From NCBI GenBank assembly GCA_963971285.1, contig OZ020252.1, forward strand, positions 13,739,662 to 13,803,661: DNA of 64,000 bases, in the 5' to 3' direction. The notes beneath the pieces are model-generated. The model was given only the letters and a program-made list of their open reading frames with translations. It did not search any database and was not told the origin of the DNA. The translations under genes were made by a program, and so were the position numbers. Shown in pieces: positions 2,003-64,000 of this stretch. Source of the stretch: Astropecten irregularis. Its lineage: Eukaryota > Echinodermata > Asteroidea > Paxillosida > Astropectinidae. Position 1 is the stretch's first letter; each line of letters begins with the position of its first letter.

Positions 2003-3134
2003 CTGCTGGTTTCACAGGTTTCATGTATGGCAATCCAATCCATACTGTCTACAACCGCACACGTGAAACCACGCATCTCTTCAGTATAATAAGGCTTCCA
2101 AATTTATGTCTTCTCCTACTAGTTATGACCAGGGTACCAGAGAATGAAGTGGCGGCACAAATCTAAAATTGCGACAGAACAAACCACTGTGCACAGACAT
2201 CCGAGTGCCATGCACATGTACTTTCCAAGTCCAAGAACACTAGAGGTGCTATTTTTATCTGTCTGCAGAAATCGGAGACAATTCCGGTGATTTTGACCCT
2301 TTTTTGTTTCATGGGCTGTTTTCACCCGCGGATGCTTGTGAATGGCTGGACAGGTTTGTATTGACACTTGTGGACTTGCCTTGCATATTGTGGTGCCAGG
2401 TTTCTTTTAATATATTTCCTGACGGGCGCAATAAATCTGCAATCTATTCCGCATGGAGAATTAACTAGCCTGCATTGGCCAAGATGTTTTTCAGTTTCGG
2501 TTGAAAACCCATCTCTACAAGCGTGTTTTTTCGTCTTTTTATAATCGGCATTGCTTCATTGTGCTTATTCTGTGTTTGTCTGTTTTTGCTCGTGTTTTTT
2601 TATGTTCACAGTTTTAATTATGGTCATTGAAGGGTGAACAAAAAAATCTGACTAGAATGGGATTTGAACCTTTGACCTCCGCAATATGATACATGCACTC
2701 TGTATTAACTGAGAAATTGAGTCATATTATGGCTGTGTCCCAATATGCCAATTATCTTTGCTCGTTTTAACTATTGTTCCAAATTGCTTGGAGTTTATCT
2801 TTATCGTGGGCTTAAAAAGCCTTTGATAAAGATCCTGCTCGGATTTGACAACACTGGCCGAAATGTTGAGATTCAACTTCTCACCTATTCTTTTCAGAAC
2901 CACACATCTATAAAAGAGTTTTTATACACAGTGTCTCTGCAAACCTTTATTCCAAGCATTTTATCAATTTTAGGTCATTATTTTGATTGATGAGCAGTCT
3001 GCAGCAGTCTGTTACATGTATTGTTTCAAATTGTGCAATAATGAGTAAGTGTTTACCAATTAATGTGTTCATCTTGTTCATATTTTAATACAATACTGAA
3101 TGTAATACCTTAATAATCATTTTGCATTTAAACC
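2003..3134. other. unassigned, with decayed repeats
   Basis: It contains a tRNA-like remnant (minus strand, about 2645-2735) and a decayed foldback copy (about 2812-3018); otherwise nothing recognised. Confidence 0.4.
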
Positions 3135-15252: not shown

Positions 15253-16149
15253 ATTCTAGAGGGATTTTCACAAATCTCCGGTTTGACGCAGGGCTGACAC
15301 GAGGTCGAAAATCGACTGGGATTCACACTGGAAAATGTTTAAATCTGCATCAACACCGAGATTCCCTTTAATTTAACCTGGGTTTTAAACCCAACCCTAC
15401 TCCGGAGCAGGATTTTCCAACCCAGGTAGAAACTCAGTCCCTTCATGAAACTCCCCGCAACAATCCTAAGATTGCCTTCAACCCGGGTTAAACTCAACCC
15501 TACTCTGGAGCAGTGTTGAGATTTTCCAACCCAGGTAGAAACTCAGTCCCTTCATGAAACTCCCCGCAACAACCCTAAGATTGCCTTCAACCCAGGTTAA
15601 ACTCAACCCTACTCTGGAGCAGTGTTGAGATTTTCCAACCCAGGTAGAAACTCAGTCCCTTCATGAAACTCCCCGCAACAACCCTAAGATTGCCTTCAAC
15701 CCAGGTTAAACTCAACCCTACTCTGGAGCAGTGTTGAGATTTTCCAACCCAGGTAGAAACTCAGTCCCTTCATGAAACTCCCCGCAACAACCCTAAGATT
15801 GCCTTCAACCCAGGTTAAACTCAACCCTACTCTGGAGCAGTGTTGAGATTTTCCAACCCAGGTAGAAACTCAGTCCCTTCATGTAACTCCCTGCAACAAC
15901 CCTAAGATTGCCTTCAACCCAGGTTAAACTCAACCCTACTCTGGAGCAGGGTTGAGATTTTCCAACCTGGGTTAAAACTCAGTCCCAACATGAAACTCTG
16001 TAAACTAGAAAAGAAGGTTCGCGAAAGACAAGTGTGAACCGAACCTGGGTTGAACAGCAGGTTGACAAATTTAATTTCAACCCGGGGCAGGAATTGAGTT
16101 TACCTCGGGTTAAGTTATACCCAGGTTGAGAGCTTGTAGTGTGAAAAGC
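15253..16149 (-). mobile_element. H-family element with an expanded internal minisatellite
   Basis: The right end TAGTGTGAAAAGCC and the segment 15990-16149 match 1018-1190 in reverse. The left end near 15253 has GGGATTTTCACAAATC. The interior is the 109-bp array listed separately. Confidence 0.6.
15362..16005. repeat. 109-bp tandem repeat, about 5.9 copies
   Basis: The marker ATTGCCTTCAACCC recurs at 15471, 15580, 15689, 15798 and 15907, exactly 109 bases apart, with a diverged first unit at 15362. The inner units are almost identical and contain GGAGCAGTGTTGAGATTTTCC. Confidence 0.9.
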
Positions 16150-31295: not shown

Positions 31296-31421
31296 ATTTG
31301 ATGAGGACTAGAGCAGACTAGTCGAAACGTTGAGACCTTACGAGAAGTGCCAATGAAATAGAAGTGCGAAAGTACGAACGATTCTTACATGGTGTTTCTG
31401 CAAACTTATCCACACGTAACC
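31296..31421 (+). repeat. repeat with hammerhead-like core and ACATGGTGTTTCTGC end
   Basis: The segment holds TTGATGAGGACTAG, a short loop, CTAGTCGAAACG, and ends in ACATGGTGTTTCTGCAAAC. That outer end is shared with the foldback at 63637-63890 and, inverted, with 36788-36915. The GACTAG/CTAGTC stem is perfect. Confidence 0.5.
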
Positions 31422-32360
31422 ATCCTCCCATTAAATTTAAGTCCAGTCCGAATGCGACTTTTAGGAACCACTGTGACTAGGCTTAATGGAATAGCGACAT
31501 GATGAAGAGTATCCCTTGGATAAAGATAATGGAGGCAGATGGTCCAGACTCCAGACTGGCAGGTACCAAGAAGGAAGCAATCCACCATCTTCAATCCAGT
31601 GTGAAATGACAAGATTACAGGGTGCAGACTTGTAGCTCCAAATCAGTCCGCGGAGCTCATTAATTTTTTGTATACCCTCAAAATCTTTTCTCTTGAAGCG
31701 TCTGGTAAGCCCTATACGTGAGAAAATCCTGTAAAGAAAATGGATGGAACCAGAGTTTTGGACTTTCAACTTTTAGCTGTTTGGGTAAAATCGAGCCCTA
31801 AAGTCGCTCCACTTTGGCATGTAGGGGAGGGGTACATTTTTTTCAGTCTGGCATCAGTCAACATGGCCGTTTTCAAGGTAATTTCCTTTGGATGGATTTT
31901 TCTCAAAAAATCATTGGCTACCCTATGGAAAATTGAAGTTTTCAGCTTCATTTTGGAGTATAGTTGGAGTCTCTCAGAAACTACTAAGTATTTTTAATAA
32001 TTTTTTTGAAATTGGCCATTCAGCATGGGAGCCTATGGGAAATTATTTACTGGTTCCAACTCTACAGATTCTGAAGATAGAGACAGAGTCAGAGGTAGAG
32101 TCAGGCTTATAGGATGTAAGCAGCTGATACCCAACTCTCATGTGAGTTGCAGAAGGATTAAAAGGCTCAACAGCAAGTTTATCGTTTCTATTTATTTTCA
32201 GGTCTTTTTTAATATTTTGCTTCAGTGAACAATAACCCATGCAGTGTGACCAGAGTCGGGTTCTAAAGTAAGGCATCAGGCATATAAAAGAGAAAGCGTG
32301 GAAATCAATGGTTCACAGCAGCAAGGATAAAGGGCTGAATAAGATGATTAACTCTTTACT
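31422..32360. other. unassigned, open on both strands
   Basis: Frames of 60-102 codons overlap on both strands. A TTTACAG acceptor-like site lies on the minus strand near 31730, but no protein family is recognised. Confidence 0.35.
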
Positions 32361-36680: not shown

Positions 36681-36787
36681 ATAGTTAAACATAACATGAA
36701 AGCTTGTCCTACATGTATTGAAGTATATAATTAAAATAAAATCCTACCTCATGATTCGTTTAAGGAAGGTAGTCAATTTAAAATGAT

Positions 36788-36915
36788 TTGTGGATCGGTT
36801 TGCGGAAACACCATGTAAGAATCGTTCGTACTTTCGCACTTCTATTTCGTTCACATTTCTCACACCATGTAAGAATCGTTCGTACATGGTGCTTCCGCAA
36901 ACCGATCCACATACC
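36788..36915. mobile_element. short inverted-repeat element related to the 31.3-kb and 63.7-kb repeats
   Basis: Ends GTGGATCGGTTTGCGGAAAC and its complement lie at about 36788-36815 and 36888-36915. Inside, CACCATGTAAGAATCGTTCG occurs twice in direct orientation. The CACTTCTATTTCG stretch matches 31350-31375 in reverse. Confidence 0.6.
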
Positions 36916-37544
36916 AATTGTCACCATGCAAAGCCTCAAATCTTTCTTGAAATGATTTGTTACAAGAAACATCAAGTATTAGGTAGAATCTGAAAAGCTG
37001 TTGCTTTGAAGCACATAACAGGCATTCACGATGTAAAAGGCTCTATTTTTAATGCCAAAATGTTCACGCTGAGCCATACATCAGCAGGATACCAATCACA
37101 AGCAATGGCCACTGCATGCTATTCCGGCTGGTAACCGGGGCCCGCAGCTATGCAGAATTTGTCCGCATGGAGCAAGCAGCTGACAGCCCTCACACTGCAT
37201 GCTGCAGCCCCATCACAATATTCATGTCACATTAATTTTATTCTTACGAGTATGACATCAGTGGAAAATGAGATGATAATTTACAAACAAATGCACAGCA
37301 TATGGAAGCAGCTTTGCAGAAGACAAATCTATCTATAAATCACAATGGAAATGCATGGAATACCAGTATGATCATGTCAGTGATATGCCCGAACCCAACA
37401 ACAAGATTTGGATACAAAATGGCTGGTCATTATGTGTACCGATACTGTGTATTGTTGGCCAATTCACTGTGTACACTGAAGCAAACTTAGCCATTTTAAA
37501 GCCATTATTTGGGACCCCTTCTATGTAGCTCTATAGAACTTTTC

Positions 37545-55571: not shown

Positions 55572-57705
55572 GTCCATAGCATCACAAACAAACATTTCAT
55601 AATTTTCCCATCCCCAATAAAAGTCACAAGATCAGCCAAATAAAAGGACAAACTGCATCCCTGACAACAACTCTTGCTGCATTCATTAGGGCCAACCTAA
55701 CAAAGGTCAATCCCCATGGCCATATAGTCATGCCTTTCATAATGGGTTGTATATAAACTCTCCATGGACACCATTCACCAATTTGACCTCAAACCAGAAA
55801 CACTGATCAATCGAATCCTCTCCTGGATCCTAAAGTCAGGGTCTTCTTTTATGCCACTTAAAATCTTCACGGCTCAGTTGCTACTTACTGTACACCTGAT
55901 TTCCCAAAGGGTCACACAAAAACTGACATAAAATAGCCATCTTTAGGATACTTTACGTACACATTTGACCAAAATGTTGACTGTCAAATCAGATGCATGG
56001 CTACAAATTCCATGTCAGAGACTTCGGACTTTCTTGTTGAATGTGCCACTCATACAATGTAAATCCTAATAAAAAATCAACACCTCTCTCTAAGCAATCT
56101 ATTTTCTACTGCCATTTCATTTGATTAATGAATCTTTACATCAATTGACCAGTTACGTAGGTGCTCATTCTGCCACTGATTGAGAAACTGTTGACGTATG
56201 TTTATGTATACGTGTACACATATGGTAAAATAGTATTTTACTATTTGGGGCTAATCACAACATTGTTCTTTTTTTAGTGTTAAAAATCACAAACAGAAAA
56301 CTGCCTGAAAATCACCTACATCAATTTCAATAGTGACAAACGAAGCATTGGAAGGAATGATTATAAAATAATGATCAATGTTACATGGCAACAGATTATC
56401 TTGGTGGGTATTTTGCCAAAAACACTCCACTTGTGTAGGCCTACAAGTACAACTAAAATGCCCAGAAAACTTATTCATGAAATTCGCGCAACCCTTTCTG
56501 ACGACCAAATTGTATCGATTGCCTAATCTCTTATAAAAATAAATCACCAAGAATAGATTTTTAGATTATAGGGTGTACAAAGGGATGTCGTGACCTTGAA
56601 GGTAAGAATTGTCTCTGGTTGCAACAGCTAAATGAAAAATAACACTCCGTGTTGTCACACATGAAACATATCACTGAAATACATTCAAAAGGTAAAAATA
56701 CTATGTAGTATTTGTTATAGTTTCTTAAATTTCTTAGTTTTCTATGTACTTCAAGAAATGAGATATTTTTGTATGATGCTCCACAAACTGTTGTTTTTCC
56801 ATCACCATCGTGCAAAGCCAAAAATCACATTGACTTTTAAGCAAAGACCTTATAATATAATCTCCATATAATTATTATGCATCCACAAGTTTTTTCCAAC
56901 AATATGATAGGATCATGTCCTTATAAAGTCGCCGTTTTCTGATCAGTGAGATTCAAGTACAGTACACGGGGGAGTGTGTCGGAAATCATGTAAACTAACA
57001 TTATAATGTCAATTTGTGCTGTTGCAAAAGAACCACCTGTGTTTGTATGATTTAAGTCACGCACACATATCTGCAATTTAAACATGGTTTTGACTTTGAA
57101 AAGATTAACTTTCCAATTCACTGTATATAGATTTACTGTGTATCTCATGCGCATTTCTACGGTCAATGAACCTATACCTGAATCATGATTCGAGAACAGA
57201 ATTTAAAACTCCTCTTTTAATAATCCAAGGATTTATAATGTACCGTCTATGAATTTCAAAATTTCCTACTGATGGAAAATACAAATTCCAATGATACAAC
57301 AATGGGACACCGGGATTCAAAATTCAGCATGATTATTATGTCTTACTGCATATTAACTAAGGTGAAATTTTTCGCACATTTTGCGAGAGAAAACATAGAT
57401 TTAGATTTAGGCAATTTATAATTTAGTAATATTTCAGAATTTCATATTTAATATCTCAATTGAAAATAAACTGTTTTAATGCTTTTTATCCTTAAATTCA
57501 TCCCACAAAATACACAAACACATCAAAAATACAAAAATACACAAAAAAGTGAAAAAAAAACACAATCGAGTCGAGTCACCAAAAACTAAAAAAATTCCTG
57601 TAGTAAATCCAAGTGTCATCTATGCTGCTCCAGTGTAGAAGACAAACTGATTAAGTAAATACAGATAAGATTCTGACAAGTTCCGACGGGATTAAGTTGC
57701 TTAAG
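55572..57705. other. unassigned, start of PDE3 intron 1
   Basis: Repeat-poor compared with the rest of the window and AT-rich, increasingly so at 57180-57600. This repeat-poor stretch next to exon 1 could hold intronic enhancers. Confidence 0.4.
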
Positions 57706-57711
57706 ACTTAC
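57706..57711 (-). other. splice donor of PDE3 exon 1
   Basis: The minus strand reads CCAA|GTAAGT, a near-consensus 5' splice site. It falls exactly where the PDE3-like reading ends, in phase 0 after ...SQKNQ. In vertebrate PDE3 the large first exon also ends, as I recall, just after the RRPSLP-type segment. Confidence 0.8.
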
Positions 57712-58512
57712 TTGGTTTTTCTGCGAGAGTGCTGGTAGAGATGTTCGCCGTGTTTTGTGGGAGAGACTGGCCGTGCTGGACTGGCTGGAAGTCCTCCGTC
57801 TACGGATGACTGGAATCTTTCCATCCGGGGCAAGGTGGTTCACAATCTGTGACTGTTTAAAGACGTGAGTTTCTGTGAACTTGGACAAGATGCATCCTAA
57901 AATCCCACAGAGGTAGGCCACGTATGGCCTTAGCAAGGGCCGCAGTCCATGCAGGGTAGACCCGCTCAAGAAGCGGATGAAACTGAGGAAAGTCAGGAGA
58001 AGAGCCGACTGGGAGGTACGCAAGGTGGACGTCAGGCTGGCTAGACTAGCGGTGCCCAAGACGCAGCCCACCAGCCAGGTACGGTAGATATTCTCCCCTC
58101 CAAAGATGACCTGGCCGGCAATTTCACCCACAAAGCAGGCCACGAAGAAAACATAGACATTGGTGCCCGTCCAGGACTTCCTGAGGTACAGGGCCAGCCA
58201 GTAAAAAGCGCAGACGATGCTGAAGATGGGGGCGAACAGACCGCAGATGGTGTGGAGAAGAGCCAGTAAACTCTCCTGGAGAAAATACATGATCACGGCC
58301 AGAACCACCACGGCCACGGGGATCACAGTACGGGGATTAATCCCATATTTCTTCCATTCGCTCAGGCCCAGCCAGGCCCAGTACGGGTTGAAGCTCTGCC
58401 TGTCCATAGGGGTAACAGTACTCCGAATATATCCGTTATTATCCCCTGTATCTAGTCCAAAATCAGCTCGATTTGGAGGGTAGCGAACGCTAAAAGACCG
58501 TCCAGTCGCCAT
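57712..58512 (-). CDS. PDE3: PDE3-type cyclic nucleotide phosphodiesterase, first coding exon (N-terminal membrane region)
   Basis: The exon encodes 267 residues from ATG at 58512 (A at -3, G at +4) to a phase-0 donor. An in-frame TAG nine codons upstream supports this start. Hydrophobic stretches lie near residues 62-79, 82-110, 117-138, 145-163, 168-184 and 194-210, fitting the multi-pass N-terminal region (NHR1) of PDE3A/PDE3B. After them come a basic motif RRRRTSS (about 237-243) and RRTSLPALS (about 255-263), which match the PKA/PKB phosphorylation segment that follows the membrane region in PDE3. PDE3 enzymes hydrolyse cAMP and cGMP at endomembranes; the catalytic HD domain is encoded by later exons and was not found in this window. 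Reading past the donor gives 31 non-homologous residues, then a stop, so the exon ends at 57712. The family call rests on remembered motif order, not on an alignment. The base composition is distinctly more GC-rich than the flanks. Confidence 0.85.
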
Positions 58513-58800
58513 TGTGTTGTACTGAGGATATGCAATCTACGTACATTTACCGTACCAGCGTTCCATGCAAGCATCGGGTTTGTATTGCCTTACGTACAGT
58601 GTGTATGTGATGATATAGAGCATGTACAGGTGTATGAGCATTGCGTTGCTATCTGGCGCGCTTGTGTGTATTTATCCAAAAATGTAGCCGCGCTATTTGC
58701 TCTCGTTAATGTTATGAATGGTGTTTACAAGGCTTCGAGAGATGGCGCTATACAATCAAACTCTTCCGTTTTTTAAACCCGATAAACTGTTTGGTTTTTT
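58513..58800 (-). promoter_or_regulatory. probable 5' UTR and promoter region of PDE3
   Basis: These are the bases directly upstream of the PDE3 start codon. A CTATAT stretch lies on the minus strand near 58610, but no convincing TATA or initiator pair is visible. There are several CpGs (around 58650-58700). No repeat family recognised elsewhere in the window covers the segment, consistent with conserved regulatory or UTR sequence. Confidence 0.35.
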
Positions 58801-58902
58801 TTTTTCCAAGGACTTCATAATTTATTCCATTTATAGTTTGTAATATTATGTTGTTGCCCATACAAATATAAATTATATTAATAAAATACAATGTAAGTAA
58901 TA

Positions 58903-59082
58903 AATTGCTGCAAACTGCTCATCAGCCAAAATAATGACCTGAAATTTTTTTAAAATGCTTGGAGTTGGGAGGGCCTGACATTTCGATCGTAGCAGGATCT
59001 TTCTTGAAGGCTAAATGACAAGAGGGGGAAGAACATGCAAGTTCTACTTGTCACTTTACCCTTCAAGAAAATCTCCTGCAAC
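58903..59082. mobile_element. foldback element, family B, diverged centre
   Basis: A nearly complete left arm (GCTGCAAACTGCTCATCAGC to CTTTCTTGAAGGCT) is followed by a diverged right part that keeps CTTCAAGAAAATC and CTGCAACGATC. It lies in the PDE3-PSMA1 intergenic interval. Confidence 0.55.
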
Positions 59083-59228
59083 GATCAGTTTTACTTGTCA
59101 AGTTAATTATCATTTATAGGACGAAATGCAGACCATTATACCATTTTATAATGGGTGGCCTACATTACTTTATAGTATGGCAAATGGTTTGACTGTCCAC
59201 CAAAGATAAATCATATTCAACAAAGTGA

Positions 59229-59310
59229 CTGGATAGCTCAGATGGTGCAGTATTTTGGCCATTGATTTAGAGGAATTAGGTTCCATTCCCTGAAATCCAT
59301 GAGAAATAAA
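59229..59310 (+). repeat. tRNA-like SINE fragment
   Basis: GACTGGATAGCTCAGATGG followed by GGTTCCATTCCC gives recognisable A- and B-box spacing, but no S1 tail follows. Similar tRNA-like remnants on the minus strand lie at about 2645-2735, 30508-30560 and 50234-50320. Confidence 0.45.
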
Positions 59311-60265
59311 TGTTTCTAAAATGTTGATTTAAAGGTGGAGTACAAGTTTGCCAAGGATGAAAAACATTAGTCAATTAGTCAGTGCAAAAGCTTATCAATT
59401 TAGAAGAGCATGGCCAATATTGCTGTGAAAATTTCCTCTGAAATTTGGTTATGGTTGCATTTAACATTCTCTCAAATTGCATCAACCAATTTTAATTGCA
59501 GTTTTGTGTTGAAATTTGACACAAAAGCAATGTGTATAAAGCCATGAACAAAATACAAAGAATTATTTGATGTTTTCTCACTGATTGACTGAACTGAACA
59601 AAATTTGTAAGTTAAATTTTATGATGTGCATTGTGAAAACTTAAATTCAATTGAAATAAAAAGCTGATTCTGATGACTGTCTCTTCCAAAAAGCATGACA
59701 AATGGTGCACTCTACCTTGAACTGTACAATTGTTGATTTAATTGTCATCTAAAACTTAAAACATTTATTTGTTGAAGAAATCATATTTTGAAAATGTGAT
59801 TATTTTTTAAGGGCACATGTAGCAAGGTATTTGGAAAAGGTAACTTACTATATGCAAGAAAAAACATGTACACAAAGAGAAATACACACAAATGATTTCT
59901 CAGTAGTGACAATCATTACAATCATGAATTGATGCCTGTCATTTATTATCCTGATTCAACAGTTTACATTAAACCAAGAATCCTAGACAAAAAAAATGAA
60001 ATTCTTATGAATTGGATACAATTTTCCCATGCAAGACTTCAACAACAAACCCACAGTCTATTCAATGGATACTCTCAAATGATTTTAATTTCTTCTGAAA
60101 TGTAATTTTGACATGGACATCTGTAAACAGGGCACACATATTTTCTTTCCTTATAGCAAAGAAATGGACAAGTAATATAAACTACATAACTATACAAAGA
60201 TTGTTCCCCTTCATATGATTTTGACATTCTGCAGACGTGTTTCAAATATTTTCTTGTGTCACCTA
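59311..60265. other. PDE3-PSMA1 intergenic, unassigned
   Basis: AT-rich with no recognised feature. Confidence 0.4.
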
Positions 60266-60718
60266 TACAGCGTGTCCCCCCAAAAACGCAACACTTTGTG
60301 TCGAGAACCATTATATTAAAATTAAACTGTTAATCAATTCAAGATTATGTGATACAGCCATTTCTTGGCTATCACCATGTAAAATTTGAGCAAAATTGGA
60401 CTGAAATTGAGGGAAAAAACTAAGACTGAATAACCCAACCTCAAAACCCAATTTTCATGTTTCTATCATACACATTATATGCGTATTGACCACATATTCT
60501 GGAATACTGCAAGTTTGTTTTTAAAGAGTACTCTTTCAATTGGTCATATTTTCGCCAATTGCAGCCAGATTTTGCTTAAAATCTGCAAGGTGATAGCCAA
60601 GACATGGTTGTATCATATACATGAATCTTAAAGTAATAAACAGTTTGATTTTAATATAATGGTTCCCGACAAAGTGTTATGTTTTTTTGTTTTTTTTTTA
60701 ATTTGGGGACACACTGTA
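60266..60718 (+). mobile_element. mariner-like MITE, family E
   Basis: TACAGCGTGTCCCCCC at the left and GGGGACACACTGTA at the right, with internal sequence as in the other copies. It lies between PDE3 and the PSMA1-like exon. Confidence 0.7.
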
Positions 60719-61547
60719 TAGCTAGCTCACTGTTCAGCAACATGACTCTGATCATACATCCCAGAGTTATCACAGCAAGGACTCTTGCCAATTCCATTTC
60801 AAATGTTGGCATTTCAAAGTAGAAACAAAAAAGCTAGGGGTAGAAAAACACTTCAATGCACCTGCGTAAACATGTAAGGGAAAGACAGAAGACATCAACC
60901 TCGTGCCGTGCCTGTAGGTACACGTGAAGTGCGTACCTTGTATTTTTCCAACTTTTTTTGTCCTTGCGGATTCCATGATGGTTGTATGAGGACCTTCATG
61001 CACTTGTATGACAGATAATTGAGTTCTCCTGTCATCTGAATGAGATATAGGCTTTTTTCCATTTCACTGGGAATGTGCAATCCAAATATTGCCTGAGTAT
61101 TCACTATCATATAAAACTATTCCCAGATGTTATCAAACTGGAGGCTCACCACTTTCCATGAAATTTGCCCAATGGCACATCTTAAAGTAACCGACCCTTC
61201 AACAGTCCAGGAGAAAAGACAGAATGTGAGAACTGTGCATATATTTGACTTATACTGTATAAGAGTGTCTTCTTTTGTCAATAGAGGAGTAAACAGCCGA
61301 TTTTGCGACTTCCATTTTCATTGAAGTGTTCATGATGAATTTGTTGAATAAACACATCAAGATGATAACAAAAAAGCAAAAACTATTGTACATGAGGACA
61401 TTTTTTTTAACTGTGATTGTAAACCACATGAATATTGACTGAGCACCTCTTGGTGGTTGACCAAATATCTGTGCAATCATATGATGAGTAACGTACTACA
61501 TTTGCTATTTATCTTTTGAAAATAAAAGCAATTATTTTGTTAAGGAA
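60719..61547. other. PDE3-PSMA1 intergenic, unassigned
   Basis: No gene is seen. It may contain the 3' UTR end of the PSMA1-like gene, although no minus-strand AATAAA was noticed near it. Confidence 0.4.
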
Positions 61548-61700
61548 CCAGGGGTTGATTTCACCAAACTCATCGTAACTTACTATCAATCGTAGGACTT
61601 TTGATGTATTGCAGCCCTACGTGGGATAGGCCCCCTACGATGGGTTATTCTTCGTAACTCTAGTTACGATCTATCGTAGGGCTTCGTGAAATTGACCAGG
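61548..61700 (+). mobile_element. D-family MITE downstream of the PSMA1-like exon
   Basis: CAGGGGTTGATTTCACC ... CGTGAAATTGACCAGG. It lies about 140 bases beyond the stop codon on the 3' side of that gene and may be part of its 3' UTR. Confidence 0.7.
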
Positions 61701-61840
61701 ATAGAGAAAGCATTCCAAAATGAAAACAGAATATTATAAAATATCTTGCCATTAGAATAAATGCAAATGCAAAAACCCTAGAGAGGCTCTACGTTCTCAG
61801 AGCATTCAGTAATGTAATTGCAAGTGTTGAGGGGTCCCTT

Positions 61841-62002
61841 CTACTGTTCCATGGGTTCAGGTGGCTGTTCTACTACAGGTGCTGCTGGTCTCGGCTCCTC
61901 GGCGCCAGTGTCCATAGCAGGTGCATCTTCGGCAGGTTTATCTGCTGCTGTTGCAGCTGCTGCAGCTCGCTTTGCTCGTGCAGAAGCCTCAATGCCGGAA
62001 AG
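61841..62002 (-). CDS. PSMA1: last coding exon of a PSMA1-like proteasome alpha subunit
   Basis: The minus strand has a good acceptor (pyrimidine-rich tract ending CTGACAG) at 62003-62005, then 53 codons in phase 0 and a TAG at 61841-61843. The peptide starts LSGIEASARAKR, has an Ala-rich stretch, then an acidic, Pro-rich tail ending EPMEQ. PSMA1 proteins end in a variable charged tail after a FLEGLE-like segment, and the human tail ends EPMEH, so start and end both fit. PSMA1 is a structural subunit of the 20S proteasome alpha ring; its alpha-ring fold would be encoded by exons beyond the right edge. The tail is longer than the human one, about 53 residues against roughly 30. It lies upstream of PDE3 on the same strand, and PSMA1 neighbours PDE3B in human. 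I saw no canonical poly(A) signal on the minus strand just downstream. The tail alone is short, so identity is probable, not certain. Confidence 0.68.
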   Translation of the reverse strand, partial: LSGIEASARAKRAAAAATAADKPAEDAPAMDTGAEEPRPAAPVVEQPPEPMEQ

Positions 62003-62075
62003 CTGTCAGAGGGATGGTCAAGGAATACTCACAGAAATTGTGAACAGATATGAACAAAGAGTTATCTTTCTTTTA

Positions 62076-62582
62076 AAGGTAGTGTCATACTTTGGTAAAG
62101 TTGATAGAACAGCTGCTGTCTGTTCATAATGTGATTTGCCATGAAATAAAAACAAACCTGTGAAATTTTCAGCTCAATTGATCATTGGAAATAGTGGAAA
62201 ACAGCACAAAAAAACATTGCAATTAATACGCGAAATTGTAAGGTAATTGTAATTGTGAGGTTTTGATCAAAACTGTTTTAAAGGTAGTATCATACTTTGG
62301 TTTTTGTCAAAGAAATGCAGATTCATGGGCAGAAATATCAAGGAAGATAAAGTAAAAGTCATCTGTGAACATTTCTGTTTTGGCTTCTTACCAAAGTATG
62401 ATACTACCTTTAAGTCTTTTGTTTCACTCATATTTTGATAAATACAGCATTTCAGGCAGAAACATTCCAATGGTACGTTTGTACCACGTCCATTTTTATA
62501 TACTCTGTAAGTTACGGTATACGTAAATCTGTGAACATTTCTGTTTTGGTTTCCTCCCAAAGTATGATACTTCTTTAAGTTT
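62076..62582 (+). mobile_element. C2 and C MITEs in tandem, rearranged
   Basis: 62076-62280 is a truncated C2 head (GTAGTGTCATACTTTGGTAAAG). From 62278 a C copy with an internal deletion follows, with AAAGTATGATACTACC at 62394-62411, and then a second half-copy to 62582. Confidence 0.6.
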
Positions 62583-62597
62583 AACCACAGTTGACTC

Positions 62598-62740
62598 AAT
62601 AGAGTACCGTAATTTTCGGAATATAGGCCGCGTGGTTTATAAGCCGCAGCACGCCAAAATCAGGAAATTAAGATTTAAAATTACTGTATTAGCCTCAATG
62701 GTTTATAAGCCGCACCTGCGCGGACAATGCATAGCATTTA
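62598..62740 (+). repeat. dispersed repeat with CCGTAATTTTCGGAATATAG and TTATAAGCCGC
   Basis: GGTTTATAAGCCGCA occurs twice, at 62634 and 62699. The start ACCGTAATTTTCGG resembles a dispersed repeat I recall from many animal genomes; the family name is not certain. Confidence 0.5.
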
Positions 62741-62845
62741 TCAGTCGCGCGGCCGCAACACAAAAGGAAAGGTTCCGCCCATGTTCTGCAGGGACAGCGA
62801 GAGGACAACTTTGATGGTTTTGACTTGTGAAGCACGACATGCCGA

Positions 62846-62880
62846 CAAAGAACTCTTTTCAGAGCCACATATTTTCAAAA
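62846..62880 (+). other. degenerate histone-type stem-loop followed by an A-run
   Basis: The sequence has AACTCTTTTCAGAGCCAC, then TATTTTC and a run of A. It keeps the loop and the downstream half of the histone stem, but the first two stem positions are mismatched. No histone reading frame was found upstream. Confidence 0.35.
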
Positions 62881-62892
62881 AAAAAAAAAAAA

Positions 62893-63584
62893 TTTTTAAT
62901 AAAATGAAAACAAGAGACTTCTCCTTTCTCAGTCTTTTCTCTGTTCTATTCTTTTCCTTTCTGTGTCGTGTGAGTTATTTTCATTTAAATGTTAACCCCC
63001 CCCGGCCCCAAGCACCAATAAATTGTTCCATCTTGCATGGGGGGACGTTTTAAGTCGTGAACCCCAAACACGACAGGTGGCGTCAACAGCGTGACTCTCC
63101 GACCCTTATACTTCACAAGAGGAACAATATTCTTAAGATATAATGATCCTGAGTTATTATTCTCGGATCTGATATGAGTGAAATCAGTTGGCTTTCCAAC
63201 CACAGTTACTGCGCAGTGTCAAACCGAATTGGTATGTTTATGCGCAGCTTGGGGATTTTCCTTCCACCTTTGTGTGCTCCGATGAAAACAAAATGTAGGT
63301 AAAGATCTTTAGACAGATCCCTTTGTGGTTGGGTTGGTTTTGCTGATAAAAGACTGTTTGCGGTTTGTGGTCTCTTTACCCAGTAAAAGTTACTACTTCT
63401 ACCAGCACAATTAATTTGATGTCATGATGCTAAATGTGGATAGCACAAGGACGCAGAATTGTAATCCCCCAACAGTAGTGTTGGTAGGCCACAGGGCATG
63501 GTGGTAGGGCAACTGAGGGGAGTGAGGGCGCTACTGTGTTTAAATCTCTAAAAAAAATCTTACCTGGCAGGAAAGATAATACAT
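62893..63584. other. unassigned, intron of the PSMA1-like gene
   Basis: The minus strand is open for 72 codons at 62985-63203, and a consensus donor CCAG|GTAAGA lies at about 63558-63563. Neither reads like the PSMA1 sequence expected before the last exon. Confidence 0.35.
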
Positions 63585-63693
63585 TTATGTAATGTTGACT
63601 TAGATTTAGGGCTATGCATGGTGGAAGTACAAACGTAATAGGATTTGCGGCAACACCATGTGACATATATAAACTCTTTTCTGAGTATGGGGT

Positions 63694-63709
63694 GGCTCTG
63701 AAAAGAGCC
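63694..63709 (-). promoter_or_regulatory. histone-mRNA-type 3' stem-loop (left arm)
   Basis: The minus strand reads GGCTCTTTTCAGAGCC followed by ACCCC: a 6-bp stem with the UUUC loop, the animal histone 3' processing stem-loop. A purine-rich CTCAGAAAAGAG follows about 10 bases later, in the place of a histone downstream element that pairs with U7 snRNA. Confidence 0.75.
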
Positions 63710-63816
63710 GTTTAACTCGATGTTCTGGTCAGTATACTCTGAACATCTTCAGGAGAATGAAGACGGCTTTCTCCTGAAGACGGCCAGAGTATACTGACCG
63801 GAACGTCGAGTTAACC

Positions 63817-63832
63817 AGCTCTTTTCAGAGCC
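63817..63832 (+). promoter_or_regulatory. histone-mRNA-type 3' stem-loop (right arm)
   Basis: The plus strand reads AGCTCTTTTCAGAGCC followed by ACCCC. Only the first stem base differs from the canonical form, giving an A-C mismatch at the stem base. The same CTCAGAAAAGAG box follows. Confidence 0.65.
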
Positions 63833-64000
63833 ACCCCATACTCAGAAAAGAGTTAAAATAGGTCACATGGTGTTCCTGCAAATCCTATTACTTATGTAAT
63901 GTTGGCTCTACAGGTATGAAGTACAGTGACACTTTGAAATTCAGAATTCTTCTGCTGTAAAAATTGAATCTGATACAAGTTTTCTACATATTGACTATTA

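Follow-up and report, generated by a model that had tools for sequence, protein, structure and literature searches.

The histone stem-loop is taken as a mark of histone genes, which use this signal to end their mRNAs without a poly(A) tail. Close to the right end of the 64,000-nucleotide stretch of DNA analysed here (the window), it occurs twice within one inverted repeat, which an earlier note had described as a mobile foldback element with two divergent histone-type 3' processing signals. This raises the questions of what kind of element the palindrome is, how closely its signals resemble those of the host's own histone genes, and whether they may act on the RNAs of the element. The genome searched comprised 475.7 Mb and carries tandem histone genes, which suggests an animal.

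The palindrome and its histone-type signals

The inverted repeat is real, with two arms of 130 nt each (63628-63757 and 63769-63898) that are 89% complementary and 11 nt apart, and its fold has a z-score of -23, none of 100 shuffles being equally stable. A target duplication of 13 bp flanks the insertion, and the bounds proposed earlier, 63598-63891, are exactly the interval between the two copies of TTATGTAATGTTG; the arms also stop at unequal points and carry a single tail, neither of which the earlier note had included. The parts are as follows, the last lying outside the insertion.

63585-63597, no strand: left target-site duplication TTATGTAATGTTG
63598-63757, minus: tailed arm, an element copy that runs from the centre outward (L001)
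63598-63634, minus: tail of about 37 nt, on the minus arm only, from comparing both arms
63674-63685, minus: U7-type purine box CTCAGAAAAGAG
63694-63709, minus: histone-type stem-loop GGCTCTTTTCAGAGCC, six pairs (Rfam Histone3)
63719-63752, minus: hammerhead-like core (CTGAAGA, stem II, AGAACATC), by reading; no Rfam hammerhead match
63758-63768, no strand: spacer at the head-to-head junction
63769-63891, plus: untailed arm, the other element copy, set head to head with the first (L001)
63774-63807, plus: hammerhead-like core (CTGAAGA, stem II, GGAACGTC), by reading; no Rfam hammerhead match
63817-63832, plus: histone-type stem-loop AGCTCTTTTCAGAGCC, outermost pair broken (Rfam Histone3)
63841-63852, plus: U7-type purine box CTCAGAAAAGAG
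63892-63904, no strand: right target-site duplication TTATGTAATGTTG
62614-62959, plus: remnant (deleted copy) of a pogo-like DNA transposon, whose histone-type stem-loop at 62853 has decayed

A stem-loop is present in each arm, as claimed. The minus-strand copy exceeds the Rfam Histone3 gathering score of 34 (40.2 bits, E 2.3e-8), and the plus-strand copy, with its broken outer pair, stays under it (29.3 bits; a search of 701 bases gave E 3e-6). ACC follows directly after both stems, the purine boxes lie where they had been placed, and both signals are directed outward; the two arms have a rare variant of the purine box in common. The 12-base core of the box, with at most one mismatch, has five matches in the window against 0.37 expected, and none of 100 shuffles had five. 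Further, the combined stem-loop-plus-box pattern has 45 matches in the 249,686 bases fetched for this repeat and none in any of three Markov-1 resamples. A further stem-loop core at 62853, absent from the earlier note, is accounted for by the deleted pogo-like copy in which it lies. Elsewhere in the window, a 109-bp unit is repeated 5.4 times in tandem at positions 15411-15998, with 97% matches.

The assignment of the motif to the histone type is borne out by the host's own genes. In one host histone repeat unit, H2B, H3, H4 and H2A all end in a stem-loop, ACC and a purine box, the H2A stem-loop having a deviant loop, and the arms of the element match these 3' ends in stem-loop, ACC, purine box and stem-to-box spacing. 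The general form GGYYYU-NNNN-ARRRCC followed by ACC was found in the arms, with the outer pair broken in the window's plus arm. Alignment of the typed family arm with host H2B covers 45 ungapped nt, 41 of them identical (score 70; maximum 27 in 1000 shuffles); the same arm scores 60 against H4 (null maximum 27) and 44 against H3 (28); its score of 27 against H2A is within the null (30). Against H2B, H4, H3 and H2A, the minus arm of the window scores 57, 60, 53 and 34 (null maxima 26, 32, 28 and 25) and the plus arm 62, 50, 42 and 27 (null maxima 26, 26, 26 and 24). With the Rfam model, the five host histone sites score 41.3, 37.4, 36.4, 36.4 and, for H2A, 25.6 bits, and element copies reach 43.8 bits, as good as histone genes. 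Chance resemblance is rejected by the shuffles of the box core (0/100) and of the H2B alignment (0/1000).

Unlike histone 3' ends, the module of the element lies in a dispersed repeat with no histone reading frame upstream, and about 70-100 nt of element continue past the stem. In a genome-wide RF00032 search, in which the best 75 of 91,728 candidates were scored, an array on contig C18 (15.52-15.62 Mb), next to histone repeats, accounts for 52 of the 75; the remaining 23 are dispersed and include all of the 15 best matches listed. Of these 23, fifteen were fetched, 13 of them matching this family (L112 and L113 with the same stretch) and two being pogo-like, and the other eight coincide with element copies already found. 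One unit of the C18 array (L115) holds no frame of at least 80 residues. A neighbouring histone gene was considered as the source of the motif and rejected: no histone gene was seen among the frames read by eye at 56000-64000, and the host histone repeats lie on a different contig (C18) from the window (C16).

A probable short Penelope-like element in many copies

The window element as query gave 1655 first-look candidates and an extended single arm 2393, and the best 40 were scored in each case. Copy numbers are therefore lower bounds (40 scored of 1655, 2393 and, for a sister family described below, 2065 candidates), and the copies represent the best matches and not a random draw; second-strand and duplicate fetches of the same place were removed before counting. 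The element occurs as single arms or as head-to-head pairs. One tailed and one untailed arm were found in 18 of 28 dimers and two tailed arms in none, the remaining dimers having a shorter second arm or no tail. These proportions, together with the existence of single copies, speak against the idea that the element carries two divergent signals by design. In L020, a separate neighbour that is 70% identical is drawn into the same cluster.

For most dimers, the end of one arm lies at reference 224-233 and that of its partner at about 249-264. Relative to the equivalent of an ATG at reference 114, untailed arms end after 110-119 nt and tailed arms after about 150 nt. The inner ends are variable, many lying at reference 96-105, just ahead of the hammerhead-like core. 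Direct repeats of 11-16 bp abut 11 of 46 elements, including that of the window (score of at least 9, at most 7 nt from the element ends; a count without shuffled control). Junction spacers mostly differ among dimers. L008 and L016 have one spacer in common and different target repeats, which suggests that at least one dimer has been mobilised whole, and some dimers may move in this way. As to whether dimers arise by self-primed fold-back of one cDNA or by joining of two, the evidence is mixed: arms within a dimer are no closer than arms across dimers (mean difference 0.011 over 21 dimers, p 0.23), though the window's two arms have the rare box variant in common. The hammerhead-like core and a pairing stem II are visible in element copies, with the GAAAC of the hammerhead reading GGAAC in the majority of family A copies (consensus); an Rfam hammerhead search gave no match at E 1 for the window arms or at E 0.1 for the copies. 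A scan of viral contigs for relatives of the element gave none. Among the copies, one (L082, 1-1100) has in front of it a tandem array of a 54-bp unit that also makes up the 5' extension seen in other family copies, and L020 comprises two separate insertions within what reads as a host gene.

In layout, hammerhead-like core and the position of the arm ends past the ATG-equivalent, the element appears to match published Penelope-like elements (PLEs). In the Anolis PLE PAc, the ORF starts at stem II of the hammerhead, reverse transcription is initiated internally, at a point 111-118 nt from the beginning of the ORF, cutting and extension affect both DNA strands, the protein needs the first 172 nt of the ORF, and an optional tail of 30-40 bp occurs (PMC11167929). 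The Pen families of Adineta vaga have inverted pseudo-LTRs, typically head to head, with a 31-bp tail on one pseudo-LTR and 9-10-bp duplications (PMC3846280). Like these, the element has a hammerhead-like core and two arm ends about 35 nt apart, its fixed ends and optional tail lying at reference 224-233 and about 260-264. It also resembles them in its inverted head-to-head copies (28 dimers), single tail and short target duplications (11 of 46 with abutting repeats). It differs from PAc and Pen in that the copies read are without an RT or GIY-YIG gene, and in the histone-type processing module of its arm, of which the parts of these accounts consulted (PMC11167929, PMC3846280) make no mention.

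Across the typed family arm the reading frame stays open, and in the arms of the window it is interrupted. The copies read contain no long RT frame, and none of them combines a telomerase-like RT with GIY-YIG. We therefore call the element a non-autonomous one of PLE type. A GIY-YIG search of the genome for an autonomous parent carrying the histone-type module found none. The host does have an autonomous PLE in tandem (L083), with GIY-YIG at 26.6 bits (cut-off 22.6) and RVT_1 at 28.7 bits, slightly below the cut-off of 29.6. Its pseudo-LTR differs from that of the window element, has a hammerhead-like core and is without the histone-type module (best local score to a histone 3' end 25, to H2A, without control), and as a partner of the window element it is a candidate at most. 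Another locus, L084 on the 24-kb contig C94, has frames that read by eye as a bacterial-like UvrC, a transporter and a ribosomal protein; this contig is perhaps a symbiont or a contaminant.

The element also resembles animal retrozymes, which the available parts of two papers describe as short non-autonomous hammerhead elements thought to be moved by PLEs (PMC7229834, PMC7761336), in being short and non-autonomous with a hammerhead motif. According to the same parts, retrozymes have canonical type I hammerheads in tandem repeats, whereas the window element has a minimal core and copies that are single or head to head. Taken jointly with the explanation of the module given below, the palindrome is probably a single insertion in which two copies of a short PLE-type retroelement stand head to head.

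Related families and a pogo-like transposon

A2-like stem-loops occur in PLE-like sequences of other invertebrates. The sister family A2 gave 2065 candidates, the best 40 of which were scored and are 92-100% identical to the query, and 14 copies were read. In most of these the stem-loop is GGTTCT-TCTC-AGAACC, followed by CACAGAAGAGAT. Compared with family A, a C-G pair has become U-A, a compensatory change, all six pairs are intact, and A2 has a purine box of its own. Against host H4 and H2B no shuffle of 500 scored as high as A2, with one for H3 and 13 for H2A; two A2-type copies (in L020 and L044) had no Rfam Histone3 match at E 0.1. Relative C, a single divergent copy at window 2840-2960, has stem-loop and purine box in recognisable form (0, 1, 4 and 8 of 500 shuffles as high for H3, H4, H2B and H2A). 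Family B, at window 31296-31440 and 36785-36950, is hammerhead-like and of PLE type, has the same start-site word and tail as the window element, and is itself head to head at 36785-36950. It is without the histone module, 65, 408, 498 and 420 of 500 shuffles scoring as high as the copy at 31296-31440 against H3, H4, H2B and H2A.

Whether the stem pairs covary, as the earlier note had asked, has a divided answer. In an alignment of 23 rows, hand-picked from related copies, stem cells are paired in 89.1% of cases, compared with 5.8-52.9% for slid versions. The covariation score was reached by none of 500 shuffles, but the number of pairs that change on both sides, two, was reached by 49 of 500, and the covariation is modest support because the rows are related. 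The stem-loop is also kept somewhat better than its flanks in family A (divergence 0.066 against 0.110, four arms left out), but 13 of 149 windows are equally low. All six pairs are kept in 29 of 54 family A arms, and 20 of 54 have the exact stem-loop. Judged by the refutation criterion of the earlier note, inserted copies thus decay nearly neutrally, as is expected of dead copies, so the decay does not decide how the source element behaves.

Dispersed RF00032 matches of non-PLE type belong to the pogo-like copies L107 and L110 (longer stretches L116 and L117). Their transposon has a DNA-binding domain of the Brinker type (25.2 bits, against a cut-off of 23.4) and a DDE_1 domain (69.6 bits), both of which pogo-like transposons share; the label pogo-like is our reading. 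Unlike such transposons, the family of which a deleted copy lies beside the insertion has an H4-like histone 3' end after the transposase stop. In the two copies read, the transposase frame ends in FDGFDL or FNGFDL, with stem-loop and box 27-30 nt after the stop; in host H3, H4 and H2B the distance from stop to stem is 23-26 nt. The module of L117 is identical to the host H4 3' end in 40 of 41 columns with one gap (0/500 shuffles as high), and since an AATAAA stretch follows it, polyadenylation is possible there too. The pogo-like transposon and the PLE-type element are unrelated elements with the same signal.

Origin and possible use of the module

In the mechanism that we propose, a PLE protein acting in trans would make two first-strand cDNAs, one beginning at the tail site and the other at the non-tail site, which would meet head to head. 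In each copy, the module comes after the hammerhead-like core and before the point at which reverse transcription begins. In the sense RNA of the source element, the module would be bound by SLBP and U7 snRNP, and part of the transcripts would gain non-polyadenylated ends of the histone type or be handled in an SLBP-dependent way; the template would be read-through RNA that has escaped cleavage. As reverse transcription begins downstream of it, RNA that is cleaved at the module cannot act as a template, which favours two pools of RNA, one processed and one read through. Judged from the sequence, it is quite possible, at slightly less than an even chance, that histone-type processing acts on element RNAs, and use of SLBP and U7 is likewise predicted. 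The downstream start of reverse transcription, the absence of the module from family B and L083, and the near-neutral decay all count against such use.

The same decay, and the position of the module upstream of the reverse-transcription start, would suit a passive capture, in which an ancestor copied a histone 3' end that has since been carried along unused; so would the near-identity to host H2B, and that of the pogo-like element to H4. We nevertheless consider this rather unlikely, as the A2 stem has been altered with all six pairs kept by compensatory change, its purine box has been kept, and a third relative (C) retains a recognisable stem-loop and box. Convergence, in which the stem-loop would help the PLE protein to bind or reverse transcription to begin and would merely resemble the histone signal, is a more doubtful explanation still. 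The module does lie within the first 172 nt of the ORF that the PLE protein needs (PMC11167929), but loop, ACC, spacing and purine box are all as in host histone genes, and family B and L083 manage without the stem-loop.

The earlier reading as a mobile foldback element holds as far as mobility is concerned, given the many dispersed copies; the foldback part gave way to head-to-head PLE-type copies that also occur singly. A foldback or MITE-type DNA transposon, with terminal inverted repeats that happen to contain the motif, would explain the long inverted repeat and its short centre, but as a mobile unit the repeat pair is disfavoured by the commonness of single-arm copies and by junction spacers that mostly differ, and neither the unequal arm lengths nor end repeats of 11-16 bp fit it, making this explanation very improbable.

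In the literature searched, which included few subscription papers, no histone stem-loop in a transposon is reported. Our tentative reading, held with less than even confidence, is that the PLE-type retroelement and the pogo-like transposon, which belong to unrelated classes, may both have taken over the SLBP/U7 histone 3'-end machinery of the host, so that their RNAs would be non-polyadenylated and coupled to S phase and their transposition would be timed to DNA replication. For annotation, it matters that among the 15 best RF00032 matches listed, 14 are this element, one is the pogo-like transposon and none is in the histone-region array. The module further touches on how PLE RNAs end. If functional copies of the signal are present in both classes of transposon, these would tie their expression to S phase and escape polyadenylation-based control, and the cleavage signals that they scatter through the genome could truncate host transcripts.
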